Source: an uncultured SAR86 cluster bacterium (GTDB lineage Bacteria > Pseudomonadota > Gammaproteobacteria > Magnimaribacterales > D2472). Taken from it: a DNA stretch of 64,000 nt. Each line of letters begins with the position of its first letter. Position 1 is the stretch's first letter. The position numbers were made by a program, and so were the translations under genes. The notes under the pieces were generated by a model. The model saw nothing but the letters and a program-made list of their open reading frames with translations, was not told the origin of the DNA and searched no databases. Location of the stretch: the NCBI GenBank assembly GCA_905181645.1, contig CAJIYN010000001.1, forward strand, positions 248,001 through 312,000. The letters run 5' to 3'. Positions 14,573 to 59,578 of the stretch are shown here, piece after piece.

Positions 14573-14785
14573 CTTATGCTCCGTTCAATTTGTACTTTAT
14601 TAATTGTGGCATATCAATTTACTTAGATACTTTATTAAACCTCAATAAGTTATATCAACTCCTTATGACTTCCGCTAACACGAAAAAATAGGTGAAATTT
14701 TTAGGGTAGTTTTTCTGGGATCAGTTTAGAATTTTGGAATTATCTTACAATGATATGCGAGGTTAAAATTAAACCTTGCGTAAAT

Positions 14786-14803
14786 CTACTCGACCGTGAC
14801 TGA
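14786..14803 (-). repeat. glmS-tail repeat copy 1: the true glmS C-terminus
   Basis: Minus strand reads TCA GTC ACG GTC GAG TAG, the end of the real glmS (RNLAKSVTVE-stop). This is the segment recognised by TnsD in Tn7-type insertion in known systems, and the reference for the four downstream copies. Confidence 0.85.
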
Positions 14804-16599
14804 CTTAGCTAAGTTCCTTGGTTGGTCGAGGTCTGTCCTCAATTAAAAGGGCTACTTCATAAGAAAGCAGTTGAAGGGGGATGGTATAAATAATAGGTGT
14901 TAAAAGAAAGTCGCACTTAGGCATGCTTATCACAGCGCCATTATTTACATCCATAGTCACTGATGGGTCAGCAAAAACATAAAGGGTTCCGCCTCTAGCT
15001 TTTACTTCTTCTAAATTACTTACTAGCTTTTCAGCAATTTCACTCTCTGGGGCTAAAGCTATAACTGGCATATTTTCATCTATTAGTGCTAATGGGCCAT
15101 GTTTAAGTTCGCCAGCAGGATAAGCTTCAGCATGAATATATGAAATCTCTTTTAATTTTAAGGCACCCTCTTTTGCAATCGGGTAAAAGACTCCTCTTCC
15201 CAAGAAAAGCGCATTATCTTTGCTCGCTATGCTTGGGGCTATAGCTGCGACTTCTTCTCTTAACTCTAAGGCTTCTGTAATTGTTTCTGGAAGGAGTCTT
15301 AGGCCCTTAATAACTCTTGCTCTAAGTAATGGGTTAAGGTCTCTACTTTTAGCCAATGACAGGGCTAAAAGCATAAGGCCTGCTAGCTGAGTGGTGAATG
15401 CTTTTGTGGAAGCTACGCCAATTTCAGGCCCTGCATTAGTAAATAAAACAAAATCTGATTCTCTTGCCAGTGAGCTTGTTGGGACATTACAAATTCCAAC
15501 CGAGCCTAGATAGTCTTTTTCTTTTGCGTATCTTAAGGCAGCAAGGGTATCTGCGGTTTCTCCACTTTGAGAAAATAATAATAAAGAGTTCTTATCAACT
15601 ATTTCTACCTAAGCTACTTCATAAACACATATATGTGAACTCTGAGATAGAAGAAAACCAACTAGCTGCTACTCGGCCAGCATGCAAACTAGTTCCACAG
15701 GCTACTATTTGAATTCGCTCCACTTGTGCAAATAATTCAGCTGAACCCAGGCCAAAAATATTATCCAGCACATCATCGCCGCCTATTCTGCCATCAATGG
15801 TATTTAGAATAGCTTGGGGCTGCTCATAAATTTCTTTTTCCATATAATGCCTGTAGTCACCTTTTGAGGTTGCTTGGCTTGAGATGTCTATTGTTGTTAT
15901 TTCTCTGGTAACTTCTTGTTTATTTGTATCAAAAATTGTGTAGGCTTCGGCAGAAATTTCAGCCACATCGCCGTCTTCTAAAAAGATAAATTCATTGGTT
16001 AATTGACCAATTGCCAAAGGGTCAGATGCAGCAAGTATTTCGTCTGTGCCTAGGCCCAATAATAAAGGTGACTTGTTTCTTGCTACTACAAGGTTTTCAC
16101 TGTCATTGATATCAATGGCTGCAATTGCATAAGCCCCATCTAGTTTTTCTTTGGCTAGGTACATGGCATCAATCATGTTGTTGCCTTGATTAAGATAAAG
16201 GTCAAGAAGGTGGGCTATAAGCTCTGAGTCTGTTTGCGATGCAAACTCATAACCATCATTAATGAGTGATTCTCTTAAGGCAACATAGTTTTCAATAATT
16301 CCGTTATGAACAATATAAACAGAATCTTTTGATTTATGTGGATGGGCGTTGGCTTCTGAAGGTTCGCCATGGGTTGCCCATCTTGTATGCGCTATACCAA
16401 GCTTGCTCTTTGGTTTTTCAGCAACCATTTTGTCTTCAAGTAACTGAACTTTTCCAAGCGCTCTAAGATGCGCTATTGATTCGTTTTGATGAAGGGCTAT
16501 ACCAGCAGAGTCATAGCCTCTGTACTCCATCTTATGAAGACCTTGAACTAAAAGTTTACCGACATTTCTAGTAGATGCAGCAGCTATAATTCCACACAT
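14786..16599 (-). CDS. glmS: Glutamine-fructose-6-phosphate aminotransferase
   Basis: Makes glucosamine-6-phosphate from fructose-6-phosphate and glutamine, the first step to UDP-GlcNAc for peptidoglycan and LPS. The N-terminal glutaminase domain begins MCGIIAAAS with the catalytic Cys2 and keeps HTRWATHGEP. SIS domains follow with YRHYMEKEIYEQP, YISYIHAEAYPAGELKHGPLALI-type residues and DQPRNLAKSVTVE at the end. Frame breaks lie at 15374-15619 and near 14835. Length about 604 residues, normal. Its ATG overlaps the glmU stop by one base. The 3' end is the origin of the repeats downstream. Confidence 0.95.
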
Positions 16600-38347: not shown

Positions 38348-38590
38348 GGCCTTGGTGAGTGGAATTAAATTAGCAATGTTTCGATGTATAAAAAATTCTC
38401 CAGTTTCAGCACCAAACATGGAAGTTGCATGCACCCTTGAGTCACAGCAAGAAATAATCATGGCAGGTGGGCTCTGGCCTTCTAATGCAAGGTTTTCATA
38501 AGTAGCTCTATCGTTAGCAAAGCTATCACTTTTCCAGTTTTTATATCTTTCAATAAGGTCTTTGGGTAAAGGTTGAATAAGTGACTTCAT
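38348..38590 (-). pseudogene. Beta-carbonic anhydrase, 5' part
   Basis: Starts MKSLIQPLPKDLIERYKNWK and has the first zinc-site segment MIISCCDSRVHATSMFGAET followed by GEFFIHRNIANLIPLTKANG. The second half with the His/Cys zinc ligands (HxxCGG) is absent; the frame runs into plsC. About 80 of over 200 residues, so inactive as written. Confidence 0.85.
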
Positions 38591-38603
38591 AACTGATTAT
38601 GAT

Positions 38604-39947
38604 TTAATCGAAATATGTTTGATAAAAATTAACTAACTCTTCTGTGTTAAGTCTTTTTTGCTCCATTGTATCTCGATCTCTAACCGTAACAGTTTTATCC
38701 TCAAGAGATTCAAAATCAACCGTTATACACATAGGAGTTCCAATTTCATCATGACGCCGATAGCTTTTACCAATATTTCCAGAATTTTCTAGCATCACTC
38801 TACCCATGCCTAATTTCTGTAAGGTATTTTTAATATCTTTAGCAATTCAACCAGACCTTCATGATTTCTTTTTAAAGGTATTACAGCGGCTTTAATAGGA
38901 GATAAATGAGGTTTTAGGCTTAAAACTGTGCGTTCTTTACCGCCCTCAAGTGTTTCCACGCTATATGCTTCATTTAAAACAGCTAAAACGCCCCTATCTA
39001 CACCAGCTGAGGGTTCAATAACATATGGAACACTCCATTTATTTGTTTCAATATCTTGAACAGCTAGCTTTGCATTAGAGGCTTTATTTTCATTTACTTT
39101 TGCACTTATACCAAGTTCAGATTGATTTTTACTGTGAGACCCTAAATCAAAATCAGTTCTATTTGCTATACCTTCAAGCTCTTCAAGGCCGTGTGGAAAT
39201 TTATACATAATATCCACGGTTGCTTTTGAATAATGAGCTAACTCATCTGCAGGCACATGATATAGCTCTAAGACGTCTTTACTCACACCTTGATCTTCCC
39301 ACCACTTTAATCTTGATTCTATCCAAAGCTTATGCCACTCCTCATCAGTTCCAGCTGCACAGAAAAATTCTAACTCCATTTGTTCAAACTCTCTCACTCT
39401 AAAAATAAAGTTTCTAGGCGTTATTTCATTTCTAAAAGCTTTACCAATTTGCGCAATACCAAAAGGCAGCCTTCTCGAAGTAGAATCAACAACATTTTTA
39501 AAATTAGTAAATATACTCTGAGCAGTTTCAGGTCTTAAGTAACCGAAACTCTTACCATCATCAATAGGGACCTATATTTGTTTTAAACATTAAGTTAAAT
39601 GGCCTGGGTTCAGTTAGGTCTGAAGATCCACAGCCAGGGCACTTATTATCTTCAAGTAAATCACTTCTCCACCTTGATTTACAGGATTTACAATCAACCA
39701 TTGGGTCAGAAAATGTTTCCTCATGACCAGAATATTTTAGAACCATAGGATTAGTTAGTATTGAAGTATCGATCCCTTCAACATCATCTCTCTCGTAAAT
39801 CATCGATTTCCACCAGGCACTTTTGAGATTATTTTTTAACTCAACACCTTATGGCCCATAGTCATAAAGACCCTGAAGACCACCATATATTTCATTTGAT
39901 TGAAAAATAAAACCTCTTCTTTTACAAAGAGCAACAAGCTCTTCCAT
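38604..39947 (-). CDS. glyS: Glycyl-tRNA synthetase, single-chain (alpha2) type
   Basis: Charges tRNA-Gly. Starts at 39947 ([32 protein letters not shown]), with [20 protein letters not shown], the zinc-like CKSCKSRW and CPGCGSSDL pair, [40 protein letters not shown] and [20 protein letters not shown]. This is the eukaryote/Gram-positive-like alpha2 enzyme, not the GlyQ/GlyS tetramer usual in gammaproteobacteria. Frame breaks lie near 39560 and 38808; an in-frame TAA after YDYGP looks like a substitution for a Leu codon. About 447 residues. Confidence 0.92.
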
Positions 39948-40896: not shown

Positions 40897-42316
40897 CTAT
40901 CCTCTCCAGAACATTGGAGTAAATAAAACTAATAATGTGAAGATTTCTAGTCTTCCTAAAATCATTGCGAAATGCTAAAATGCCTTTACCTGCACTGGTA
41001 ACAGAAGAATAATTTGCAGAAACCTCACCAAGCCCTGGACCCAGATTATTTAAGCAAGCGCCAATTGCAGAAAAAGCTGAAGTAAAATCTAGACCGGTGG
41101 CAAGAAGAGCAAATAAAAGCAACATAAATGAAATAACATAAATAGAAAAGAAGCCCCAAACTGATTCAGCAACAGAACCATCAACAACTTTAGAACCAAT
41201 CTTTACAGATACCACTGCGCGAGGATGAATAATTTTAATTAATTGTTTGTGCGCATGATTTAGCATAATCAAAATTCTCCATGACTTTATCCCTCCTCCA
41301 ACTGAACCAGAACAGCCGCCTATAAAGGCACCAATTAATAATAGAAACCCAATAACTGATGGCCATAAAGAATAATCAGTTGTGGAAAATCCTGTTGTTG
41401 TGACTATCGATACAGAATGGAACAATAAGTCTTTAATAGAGCCATTATTATTATTTGAAAACTGATTAATTAACAATGAAATAACAAAGATTAAAGCCAT
41501 GATCGATAAAAAGAACTTAAGCTCTGGATCATAAAAATACTTTAAAGGTTTCTTTTTATATATTGCAAAGTAGTGCAAGGTAAAACTTAAGGCAGAGAGC
41601 AGCATAAAAATATTATACAAACAAGCTCTATACCAAAACTATTAAAAAATCCGATGCTATCGTCGTGAGTCGAAAATCCGCCAATTGAAACAGTGCTTAA
41701 GCTATGGGCTATTGCATCAAAACCATTCATGCCAGCAATCCAGTACATAAGAGCACAAAGCACAGTTAGACCAAAATAAATTGTCCATAACGCTTTTGCA
41801 GTTTCAGTAATTCGAGGTGTAAGCTTTTGGTCACTCATTGCTCCAGGAATTTCAGTTTTATAAATTTGGCCGCCACCGATCCCAAGAATAGGCATGACAG
41901 CTATAGGTTGGATTATCAACACTGAATCCTCCCAACAATAACGTTAGAATAGATTCTCCTACAACTGGTATCGTTGCAACAAGATTAGTAATAACAGTTG
42001 CACCCCAAAAACTCATTTGACCCCAAACAAGAACATAACCCATAAAAGCTGTAATAATCATAAGAAGAAAAATAACTACACCCAGTATCCACAAGACCTC
42101 TCTAGGCTCCTTATAAGAGCCATAATAAAGACTTCTAAACATGTGAATAAAGACTGCCAAAAAGAACATCGAGGCAAGAACCAAAAGAAAAGTAATTAAA
42201 AAAGTATTCAGACTAGAGTCACTATATAAAAGTGAAATACTTATTGGAACAATAAATGACAAACTGAACAGCATCAGCAGAATGCCAAATAGATTAGAAA
42301 TAGCTTTAAGGTTCAT
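40897..42316 (-). CDS. trkH: Trk potassium uptake membrane subunit
   Basis: Potassium channel-like transporter working with Trk[16 protein letters not shown]-type filter ([20 protein letters not shown]) and [18 protein letters not shown] are two of the four filter loops, and [20 protein letters not shown] is typical. Frame breaks lie near 41890, 41610 and 40975; reading through gives the expected end [17 protein letters not shown]. About 473 residues. One-base overlap with trkA. Confidence 0.92.
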
Positions 42317-55912: not shown

Positions 55913-56563
55913 ATGCAAAAAGGAATCAAAGTAAATCTAGCGCTAATAATAGTTTTTATCATTATTGTAATGAGCCTATTTATAAGCAAACTTACAACTC
56001 CAAGAGTACTAAATAATAATGAGCTTTTGGTAAATGGACTATTTCTATTTGAGAAGCCTAAGCAGATATCTAATTTTGAATTCTTTTCCTCTAATAATTC
56101 ATCTTTTACAAAATCTGACTTAATTGGGAAATGGACATTAATGTATTTTGGGTTTAGCAGATGTCCAGATGAATGTCCTACAACAATGTATCAACTTTCA
56201 AAGTTAATTAAGGTCTTAAAAGAAAAGAATTACCAATTAGATAATAAGCAGTGGGTTCTTGTTTCCATAGACCCAGAAAGAGATAGCCCAGAGATTATAG
56301 ACACCTATGCCAAAGGTTTCGATGAGGATTTTATGGGAGTTTCTAATACAAGGCCTATGTTATTAAGTCTCGCAACCCAGCTTGCTGTAAATAATAAAAT
56401 GCCGCCAATGAACAATGAAGATGATAACCATGATCATCTAGATGCTCATGTAAATAATATTATTTTAATAAATCCTGAAGGAAAGTTCGTAGGATTTTTT
56501 AGACCGCCATTTGATATTTCCAGGTTATCACTAACCTATCAATCGGTAACTCAGCCTAACTAA
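55913..56563 (+). CDS. SCO1/SenC copper chaperone
   Basis: Thioredoxin-fold protein supplying copper to the CuA site. One N-terminal helix, FGFSRCPDECPTTMYQLSKL with the CxxxC copper motif, SIDPERDSPEIIDTYAKGF, and His in DHLDAHVNNIILINPEGK. 216 residues, intact. A diverged copy of its last 43 codons occurs at 56936-57067. Confidence 0.94.
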   Translation: MQKGIKVNLALIIVFIIIVMSLFISKLTTPRVLNNNELLVNGLFLFEKPKQISNFEFFSSNNSSFTKSDLIGKWTLMYFGFSRCPDECPTTMYQLSKLIKVLKEKNYQLDNKQWVLVSIDPERDSPEIIDTYAKGFDEDFMGVSNTRPMLLSLATQLAVNNKMPPMNNEDDNHDHLDAHVNNIILINPEGKFVGFFRPPFDISRLSLTYQSVTQPN

Positions 56564-56944
56564 GGAGATTCTGGCAGATTTTCATAGCTTAGATCGTTAT
56601 ATGGGTTTTGAGCTCCAATAGCATCTGGATGGACAACCGATATATCAATATCACTTCCATAATCACCAGAAATAAAACCAGCTACTGTATTTTTTGGCGC
56701 TATATAAATAGTTGCAAATCTTCCATTTTTTGCATAAACCAATGTGACTTCTTCACCAACTTTAGATGAAACAAGTACCCAGCCCGTTGTAAGAGTTTCC
56801 GCCCCTAACACCTTCATCTGCAGTGATTATATATTCAGATTTGCAGTCATTAATTCTTCCAGAAATAGATTCACCAGTTCCTAATAAGACAGTTGGAGCT
56901 TTAACAATTTCAGCATCTGTAGGCAAAGGAAAGAGCATAAACAT
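56560..56944 (-). CDS. Secreted protein of unknown function, 5' end missing
   Basis: Two frames (56762-56944 and 56560-56817) join into about 125 residues: FMLFPLPTDAEIVKAPTVLL, GTGESISGRINDCKSEYIIT, then ETLTTGWVLVSSKVGEEVTL and GAQNPYNDLSYENLPESP. The first residues look like the tail of a signal peptide (FPLPTDA) whose start is cut at the junction with the second sco copy. Convergent with sco, overlapping its stop by 4 bases. Family not recognised. Confidence 0.55.
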
Positions 56945-57067
56945 TTAGACAGTCATGCCAATAATATTATTTTATTAAATCCAGACGGAGATTTTGCAGG
57001 AATATTTAGACCGCCATTTGATATCTCAAGACTTTCCTTGACCTACCAATCTGTCACCCAAGACTAG
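56936..57067 (+). pseudogene. Second, diverged copy of the sco 3' end
   Basis: Forty-three codons encode HKHLDSHANNIILLNPDGDF and then AGIFRPPFDISRLSLTYQSV TQD before TAG. This is clearly homologous to the end of the intact sco gene (HDHLDAHVNNIILINPEGKF and on), but most codons differ at the third position, so it comes from another lineage. No upstream sco body. It ends overlapping the convergent qor stop by 4 bases, as sco itself does with its own neighbour. Confidence 0.9.
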
Positions 57068-58062
57068 ATATTAATTATTACTTTTCCTTTAGCTTTTCTA
57101 TTTGCTAAATGCGAGAAAGCCTCAGCAGAGTCTTCTAAAGCGTATCTTTGCGAAACTTCTGGATTTATTTTTCCTTCTGCATGCAGCTTAAATAACTCAT
57201 CAAAATTCTTTTTATTTTCATCTGGGAATAAGCCAACCCATGCTCCCCAAAACACACCAACAATTTGGCATCCTTTCAAAAGCGTTATATTCAGAGGAAT
57301 TTTTGGAATTTCGCCTGCAGCAAAACCAATAACAAGATACCTACCTTCCCAAGCAGTTGCTCTAAGACAGGGCTCAGCATAACTATCGCCAACTGGGTCA
57401 TAAACAACATTTGCGCCCATTCCTCCTGTTAATTCTTTAATCTTATTTGACAGTTGCTTTTGCTGATCTCTATCAAGATTACCACTTGGATATATAAAAC
57501 CCTCATCAGCTCCATGAGCCATACACATATCAATTTTATCTTGAGTGGATGCGGCTGCAATTACTTTTGCACCCATAGCTTTCCCTAGTTCTATAGCAGC
57601 TATACCAACACCACCTGAAGCTCCAAGAACAAGCAAGGTCTCACCTGGTTGGATATTTGCTCTTTGCTTAAGTGCATATAGACTAGTTCCATAGGTCATT
57701 GATAGAGCTGCTGCTGAATCATAATCCATTGAGTCTGGTATTAATGTGCAGCTATTTTCATGAGCTAATATCTTCTCTGCAAAAGCTCCGGTTCCAGTCA
57801 TAGCAAAAACTTTATCACCAACTTTAAATTTAGTTACACCTTCTCCGATTTCTGAAATGATTCCTGCTGATTCACCGCCTGGAGTAAAAGGTAGAGGAGG
57901 TTGATATTGATAAAGTCCTTGAATCATCAAAACATCAGGAAAGTTTATACTGCCTGATTTAACATCTATGACAACATGCCCAGGAATAGCCGAAGGGGAT
58001 TCAACTTCATTTATTTTAAGTTTATCTGGACCACCTAATTCAACACACTGCAAAGCTTTCAT
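57064..58062 (-). CDS. Quinone oxidoreductase-like zinc-independent MDR protein
   Basis: A 332-residue medium-chain reductase. GroES-like domain with INFPDVLMIQGLYQYQPPLP and PGGESAGIISEIGEGVTKF. Rossmann domain with LVLGASGGVGIAAIELGKAM and YDPVGDSYAEPCLRAT. No structural or catalytic zinc Cys cluster. Probably reduces quinones or enones with NADPH; the substrate is unknown. Intact. Confidence 0.88.
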   Translation of the reverse strand: MKALQCVELGGPDKLKINEVESPSAIPGHVVIDVKSGSINFPDVLMIQGLYQYQPPLPFTPGGESAGIISEIGEGVTKFKVGDKVFAMTGTGAFAEKILAHENSCTLIPDSMDYDSAAALSMTYGTSLYALKQRANIQPGETLLVLGASGGVGIAAIELGKAMGAKVIAAASTQDKIDMCMAHGADEGFIYPSGNLDRDQQKQLSNKIKELTGGMGANVVYDPVGDSYAEPCLRATAWEGRYLVIGFAAGEIPKIPLNITLLKGCQIVGVFWGAWVGLFPDENKKNFDELFKLHAEGKINPEVSQRYALEDSAEAFSHLANRKAKGKVIINI

Positions 58063-58094: not shown

Positions 58095-58418
58095 TCAACA
58101 TAAGCCTCTATATTTCTTTGAGACTTCTTTAACATCGTCTTTAAATCTTTTCAAAGAACCTAACTCTCCAGAGTAAACTACAATTCCCTCTCTTATAATT
58201 CTTACTTGGTGATTTCGATTAATTTTTCCATCTGTCACATAACATCCAGCAATGGTTCCAAATTTAGTGATTTTAAAAGTTTCTCTTATTTCAGCTGTTC
58301 CAACAATTTGTTCTTTAAATTTTGGAGAAAGCATTCCTTCCATAGCTTCTTTAATTTCTTCAAGCGCTTTATAAATAATGGAGTATAACCTAATATCTAT
58401 TTCTTCTTTTTCTGCAAT
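58095..58418 (-). pseudogene. infB: Translation initiation factor IF-2, C-terminal-region fragment
   Basis: About 100 residues: [60 protein letters not shown] and [25 protein letters not shown]. These match domains 3-4 of IF-2 (compare LYSIIYxxxEExKxAMEGML and [12 protein letters not shown]). The G domain and the last 40 residues are missing. The 5' side starts inside the end of gshA. Confidence 0.88.
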
Positions 58419-59578
58419 TTGGTTGAATTATTTCGACCGGAAGCCACCATATCAGTATGATTTTTTTGTAATTGGATATTTTCTTCATCAGTTAGCTCCG
58501 GACTCTCGCTGACAAAACAATGTATTAAGAATAAATCTATTAAACGCATTTGATCTTTAGAAATGCCCCCAAGAGTATCTGGACTTATATCAACACCCCT
58601 TACTTCAACGTACTCAATGCCATGCTCTTTCAGTGCATTGGCTGGTCTTAAGCCTTCCGACGAAGTTCTTTTTGGTCGAATGGTGTCATAAAGCTCATTT
58701 TCTATTTGAATAATTCCATCTGATATTTGGTGTCTGTTGCCTTCGGGATCATGCAGCCCAAGGCTTTTAAAGTCTGGATGAGGAATTTTAATACCCTTTT
58801 TAACTGACTCGATAAAACCATCTAAAGAGTTATATCTAATACCAAGTGAGGTTTGAATAGGACTTTGATAACCAATATTACTCATCCTTAAAGAAGTAGC
58901 ATTGGGCATAAAAACATCATTTGCATTTAACTCTTCAAGATCATGCTTCTTCCAGATACATAGGATTTATCAGCGACAGGAGATGCTGATAACTGAGCTA
59001 AGATAAACCAAAAATTTCTTTTAAAATTCCTAATTCACCTTCAATACGAACTTCATCAACCATGTCTTGAGTATATTCATCACCCAAAAGATTCTTATAA
59101 CAAGCTGCATCAATTGAAAAATTATAATGAATTCCTGAAACACATTGCATGATGCTAGGTTCGTTGGTAAAAAACTTTCTGAACCAACTTCATCATATTT
59201 TAATTTTGGTCCAATATTAGAAATATTAATATCAGATTCTTTTATAAATAATTCTAAATAGAGTGCGCCCATAAATACTCATCTTCATCAATATTTTGTG
59301 CAGTAAATACATGCAAGTCTTGTAAACAAGAATATAGATCATCAACATTATCAAATTTAGGTGTAACTAATTCAATGAGAGCTTCTGCAAAATCAGTAGT
59401 TATGTATGGATTAGTTAAAGCAGAGCCTAGTGATTTTGGATGTGGTCGCTTTGAAATAGAGCCATCATGAGATAACTCTTAAAGTTTCACGTTCAATACC
59501 TCTATTAAATTTAAGATTTTTTAATGAAGTCTTTTCATTCCAACTTTTAAGTTGGTTAGTAAAGCTCTCATCAAACAT
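58397..59578 (-). CDS. gshA: Glutamate-cysteine ligase, 3' end replaced
   Basis: First step of glutathione synthesis. Start at 59578 ([20 protein letters not shown]), [65 protein letters not shown] and [20 protein letters not shown] are typical of the E. coli GshA class. Several frame breaks lie between 58910 and 59480. It stops after [11 protein letters not shown], about 120 residues short of normal, where IF-2 sequence begins. The active-site core is largely present, but function is doubtful as written. Overlaps pckA by one base. Confidence 0.85.

Follow-up and report, generated by a model that had tools for sequence, protein, structure and literature searches.

The duplicated 3' end of the sco gene described here is almost certainly a technical artefact of MAG making that exists in no cell, a splice made in silico from DNA of several marine SAR86 bacteria and other plankton, as judged from the deposited letters and those of related assemblies. 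The window, a stretch of 64,000 nucleotides from an uncultured SAR86 cluster bacterium, carries in succession sco (+ strand), a broken gene that we call X (− strand), a second sco 3' end (+ strand) and qor (− strand). The first sco frame is open over the whole gene (55913-56563, + strand) and encodes a SCO1/SenC protein (Pfam PF02630, 1e-27). Residues 170-214 of this protein are matched again at 56927-57061 with an E-value of 1e-18, far beyond chance, and the second gene end noticed in an earlier, sequence-only reading of the same DNA is therefore present in the deposited letters. That reading had counted 43 codons in it; the similarity in fact begins slightly upstream and the tail 2 frame, KEHKHLDSHANNIILLNPDGDFAGIFRPPFDISRLSLTYQSVTQD followed by a stop, covers about 45 codons at approximately 56930-57067 (+ strand). 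The two tails share 76.8% identity in DNA (over 125 bp) and 81% in protein (over 42 residues), and each overlaps its convergent neighbour by four bases, as had been read: CTAA at 56560-56563 between sco and X, and CTAG at 57064-57067 between tail 2 and qor.

Gene X had been taken for an opposing gene with a single cut. It is indeed cut, but in two places: the remnant (56560-56933, − strand) has lost its 5' end at 56933, and with it the first ~40 residues, and its frame is broken by a foreign insert of about 65 bp (56803-56866, − strand) that is unlike X and translates into a piece of acetyl-CoA synthetase, RINDCKSEYIITADEGVRGG, with matches in PDB, NCBIfam and the acs genes of the SAR86 order. 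The peptide finds acetyl-CoA synthetases in 107 of 203 genomes of that order at identities of no more than 74%, which indicates that the donor of the patch is not among the genomes searched; at the DNA level, no convincing source emerged from the window's own genome and 11 related ones. The intact gene, as seen in FRAM18_bin308 (C8, 42458-42946), encodes 163 residues with a lipoprotein-like start, MKNKTLLTLLFSTILFSGC, and neither this protein nor the remnant in the window matched a Pfam family above threshold. X is patchily distributed, occurring in 39 of the 203 SAR86-order genomes; in the genus to which the window belongs it separates sco from qor, and in others it lies elsewhere, for example about 73 kb from sco in FRAM18_bin313.

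We checked gene order in relatives for direct adjacency of sco and qor, as the sequence-only reading had proposed. All three congeners used for comparison (FRAM18_bin308, or G001, together with G003 and G004) carry sco, an intact X and qor in this order, with a single sco tail, whereas in most of the other genera of the family for which the flanks were read sco stands beside qor without X. The second sco tail is absent from 60 relatives and from 107 genomes of the family, two overlapping sets, in which the remaining second matches to sco are either weak paralogues that span the full range or short matches due to chance.

Assemblies matched by the pieces

The pieces of the locus trace to different assemblies of one data set, and do so above their genome-wide relation, as is expected of a chimera. 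Exact matches to FRAM18_bin308 cover 56375-56697 (323 bp, from the end of sco into X), 56717-56799 and 56851-56933. Upstream of about 56375, by contrast, sco is 92% identical to FRAM18_bin313 (G127), a SAR86 member of another genus, and only 72-73% identical to FRAM18_bin308. The sco gene that had been called intact is thus open in frame yet chimeric, switching at about 56375 from a FRAM18_bin313-like 5' part to a tail 1 (56375-56563, + strand) identical to that of FRAM18_bin308. Tail 2 and qor in turn are together 93% identical over 1161 bp to FRAM18_bin313, where sco directly adjoins qor. The window's qor itself (57064-58062, − strand; zinc-binding-dehydrogenase family by Pfam) is a mosaic, 93-94% identical to FRAM18_bin313 and FRAM18_bin308 alike and including two stretches, of 161 and 164 bp, that are identical to the former.

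With tail 1 and X matching one assembly, and tail 2 and qor closest to another from a different genus, the alternative of a join between two strain haplotypes, which the sequence-only reading had also offered, is borne out. The evidence points to a chimeric assembly near 56936-56945, the very outcome which that reading had set against its own proposal. Exact matches of at least 60 bp with the window number 101 for FRAM18_bin308 and 6 for FRAM18_bin313 (in 36 kb sampled), compared with 1 for G003 and 3 for G004.

The two matched assemblies also resemble one another unevenly. Their qor genes are 92% identical across the genus boundary, compared with 81-84% between FRAM18_bin308 and its congeners, and the 5' parts of their sco genes are only 70% identical. 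The high qor identity would reflect either an exchange in nature or an artefact of the same kind in FRAM18_bin308.

Mosaicism and gene damage across the window

The patchwork extends well beyond sco. We compared 49 kb of the window (14601-64000) with FRAM18_bin308, scoring both identity and gene damage, and found perfect identity alternating with stretches of 50-85%. Identity follows a bimodal distribution: out of 494 bins of 100 bp, 110 show perfect identity, where a uniform mean identity of 88.5% would predict 0.002, and 43 stretches fall below about 65%. In most of the longer low-identity stretches, G003 or G004 is much closer to FRAM18_bin308 than the window is. Genes that are whole in FRAM18_bin308 are fragmented in 26 of 44 cases in the window, compared with none of 44 in G003 and one of 29 in G004. 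This assembly bears nearly all of the damage and G003 none of it, again as a chimera would have it. The window belongs to contig 1 of a normally sized genome (1.33 Mb in 3 contigs) with a completeness score of only 59.8%.

The patches break genes mostly internally and are of two kinds. Some hold foreign versions of the same gene, as in atpG, gyrB, polA and yidC; the presence of such patches in gyrB, atpG and polA, genes normally needed by living cells, argues against a biological origin. Others hold pieces of unrelated genes, as with the acetyl-CoA synthetase fragment in X. A cytochrome b fragment (41906-42149, − strand; NF040969, 2.5e-25) replaces part of trkH (NF008020), and an IF-2 fragment (58095-58423, − strand; TIGR00487, 2.5e-35) stands in for part of the C-terminal end of gshA (TIGR01434).

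At both of these latter patches the replaced gene and its replacement have a long exact word in common and in register, a 21-mer at 41984 for trkH and cytochrome b and a 20-mer at 58138 for gshA and IF-2, while in a control of 20,000 random 260-bp pairs no pair had a common word of 18 or more bases. We dropped a further 20-mer, at 38655, as evidence of this kind, as the adjoining gene may itself belong to the family of the patch, glycyl-tRNA synthetase.

Two further places in the window deserve mention. At 38364-38679 a plsC-like acyltransferase gene lacks the part for its first ~75 residues, and the same stretch holds a frame resembling, by eye, a carbonic anhydrase fragment. The tail of glmS, near 14780-14840, changes frame ahead of its final 16 residues, and a FRAM18_bin308 contig begins at the same place. 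The sequence-only reading had seen in the sco locus a repeat of a glmS pattern, a gene tail of another lineage followed by a new neighbour; this pattern is probably the same artefact.

Probable origin in read correction, and competing explanations

The window's MAG appears to belong to the Fram Strait (FRAM18) data set, because its sequence coincides exactly in places with that of two FRAM18 bins, only one of which is of its genus. For the Fram Strait long-read MAGs, PacBio HiFi reads were corrected with Illumina reads by FMLRC v1.0 and then assembled with metaFlye 2.6 (PMC8254474). Regions of rare k-mers count as weak for FMLRC and are overwritten, from a solid seed onwards, by a path through a de Bruijn graph, the path being chosen for least edit distance at the expected length with no mention of a similarity cut-off, and with a default k of 21 (PMC5807796). 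In mixed samples, hybrid correctors mistake strain variants for errors (PMC10690975). Correction of this kind ahead of metaFlye would yield just such a patchwork, and we consider it probable that FMLRC, and not another step, made the junctions between sco, X and tail 2.

We propose that a SAR86 strain of low abundance had its long reads corrected with short reads that came from the entire mixed community. The strain's own k-mers would have been too rare to be trusted, so that the corrector would walk the community de Bruijn graph from a shared seed of ~21 bases and insert, at about the expected length, sequence of other strains, of other taxa and even of unrelated genes. At the sco locus this would have left a FRAM18_bin313-like start of sco, a FRAM18_bin308-like tail 1 and X, and the acetyl-CoA synthetase patch within X, while extension from qor would have overwritten the true start of X with a FRAM18_bin313-like tail 2. 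The common words at the trkH and gshA patches are close in length to the k of the corrector. Where X meets tail 2, seed-and-extend correction at a read end would presumably need no shared seed word. The process resembles the known over-correction by FMLRC and LoRDEC, in which sequence peculiar to a strain is read as error and overwritten with a path of the graph of short reads (PMC10690975, PMC5807796), but differs in that the replacements here include other taxa and unrelated genes and persist into the contig.

A chimera from a different technical step, be it amplification during library preparation or the collapse of several strains by metaFlye, is the strongest competitor, if a fairly unlikely one. 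Strain mixtures and low-input libraries are well-known sources of chimeras, and the qor of FRAM18_bin313, from the same data set, likewise carries a frameshift. Short patches of unrelated genes of similar length, with 20- and 21-base words, nevertheless speak far more for graph correction at k=21 than for template switching or consensus collapse.

Natural recombination fares far worse. Under such a scenario, a sco-X segment from a FRAM18_bin308-like relative would have entered a genome with adjacent sco and qor by homologous recombination within sco and an illegitimate join beyond it, leaving the old tail behind. The sco-X-qor and sco-qor arrangements are both natural, and the order of FRAM18_bin313-like sco 5' part, tail 1, X, tail 2 and FRAM18_bin313-like qor is the one that this event would produce; homology-facilitated illegitimate recombination, a process of bacterial transformation, would similarly pair a homologous join with a non-homologous one at the opposite end and duplicate a gene end. 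That process, however, is one event at one place, whereas the patches here span the compared stretch and break many genes. A single event in otherwise undamaged genes is not what the window holds: X has two defects, the second being its acetyl-CoA synthetase interruption, and the fragmentation of 26 of 44 genes, with gyrB, atpG and polA among those patched, has no counterpart in the congener G003. Dozens of patches from other taxa and the exact identity to FRAM18 assemblies would likewise go unexplained. Because of the damage to those 26 genes we keep natural recombination only as a small rival and judge it very improbable; there is an equally slim chance that a real strain did acquire a sco-X segment from a related species, by homologous recombination on one side only, between its sco and qor genes, that a sco tail persists there as a vestige, and that only the surrounding patches are artefactual.

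Least credible of all, and in our view extremely improbable, is the sequence-only proposal of an insertion using the gene end as its target, in which an integrating element would recognize the sco 3' end and bring a replacement tail. Phage 21 and e14 integrate in this way at icd, swapping the 3' end of the gene for a synonymous copy, and two synonymously diverged tails do flank an inserted segment here, each ending at a convergent neighbour. The likeness to icd is superficial and goes no further than a gene end present in two diverged copies, and the locus holds no integrase, element or target-site structure. The "insert" is a mere 0.37 kb of broken lipoprotein gene; between the tails we found no integrase or recombinase, the only notable frame being the remnant of X. 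The same place holds an intact X and no second tail in three congeners, tail 1 is FRAM18_bin308's own with FRAM18_bin308's own neighbour, and the second tail recurs in no other genome searched; nor did any relative show a larger, integrase-bearing insert between sco tails. With no integrase, no recurrence and no intact insert, and with similar, mostly internal patching in 26 of 44 genes, we rejected gene-end-targeted integration.

Consequences for genomes made in this way

The duplicated sco tail, read as a product of hybrid read correction, is a warning and not a discovery: what look like duplicated gene tails, fused genes or cross-genus mosaics in this genome can be products of such correction, and genomes made in the same way are perhaps affected too. 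Suspicion is accordingly due to any other finding from the window between 14601 and 64000 that depends on a gene fragment, a frameshift or an unusual neighbour. In a collection that keeps one genome per species, like the one searched here, a chimeric sequence of this kind can stand as the entry for its species, and there it could feed false claims of recombination or of new insertion mechanisms.
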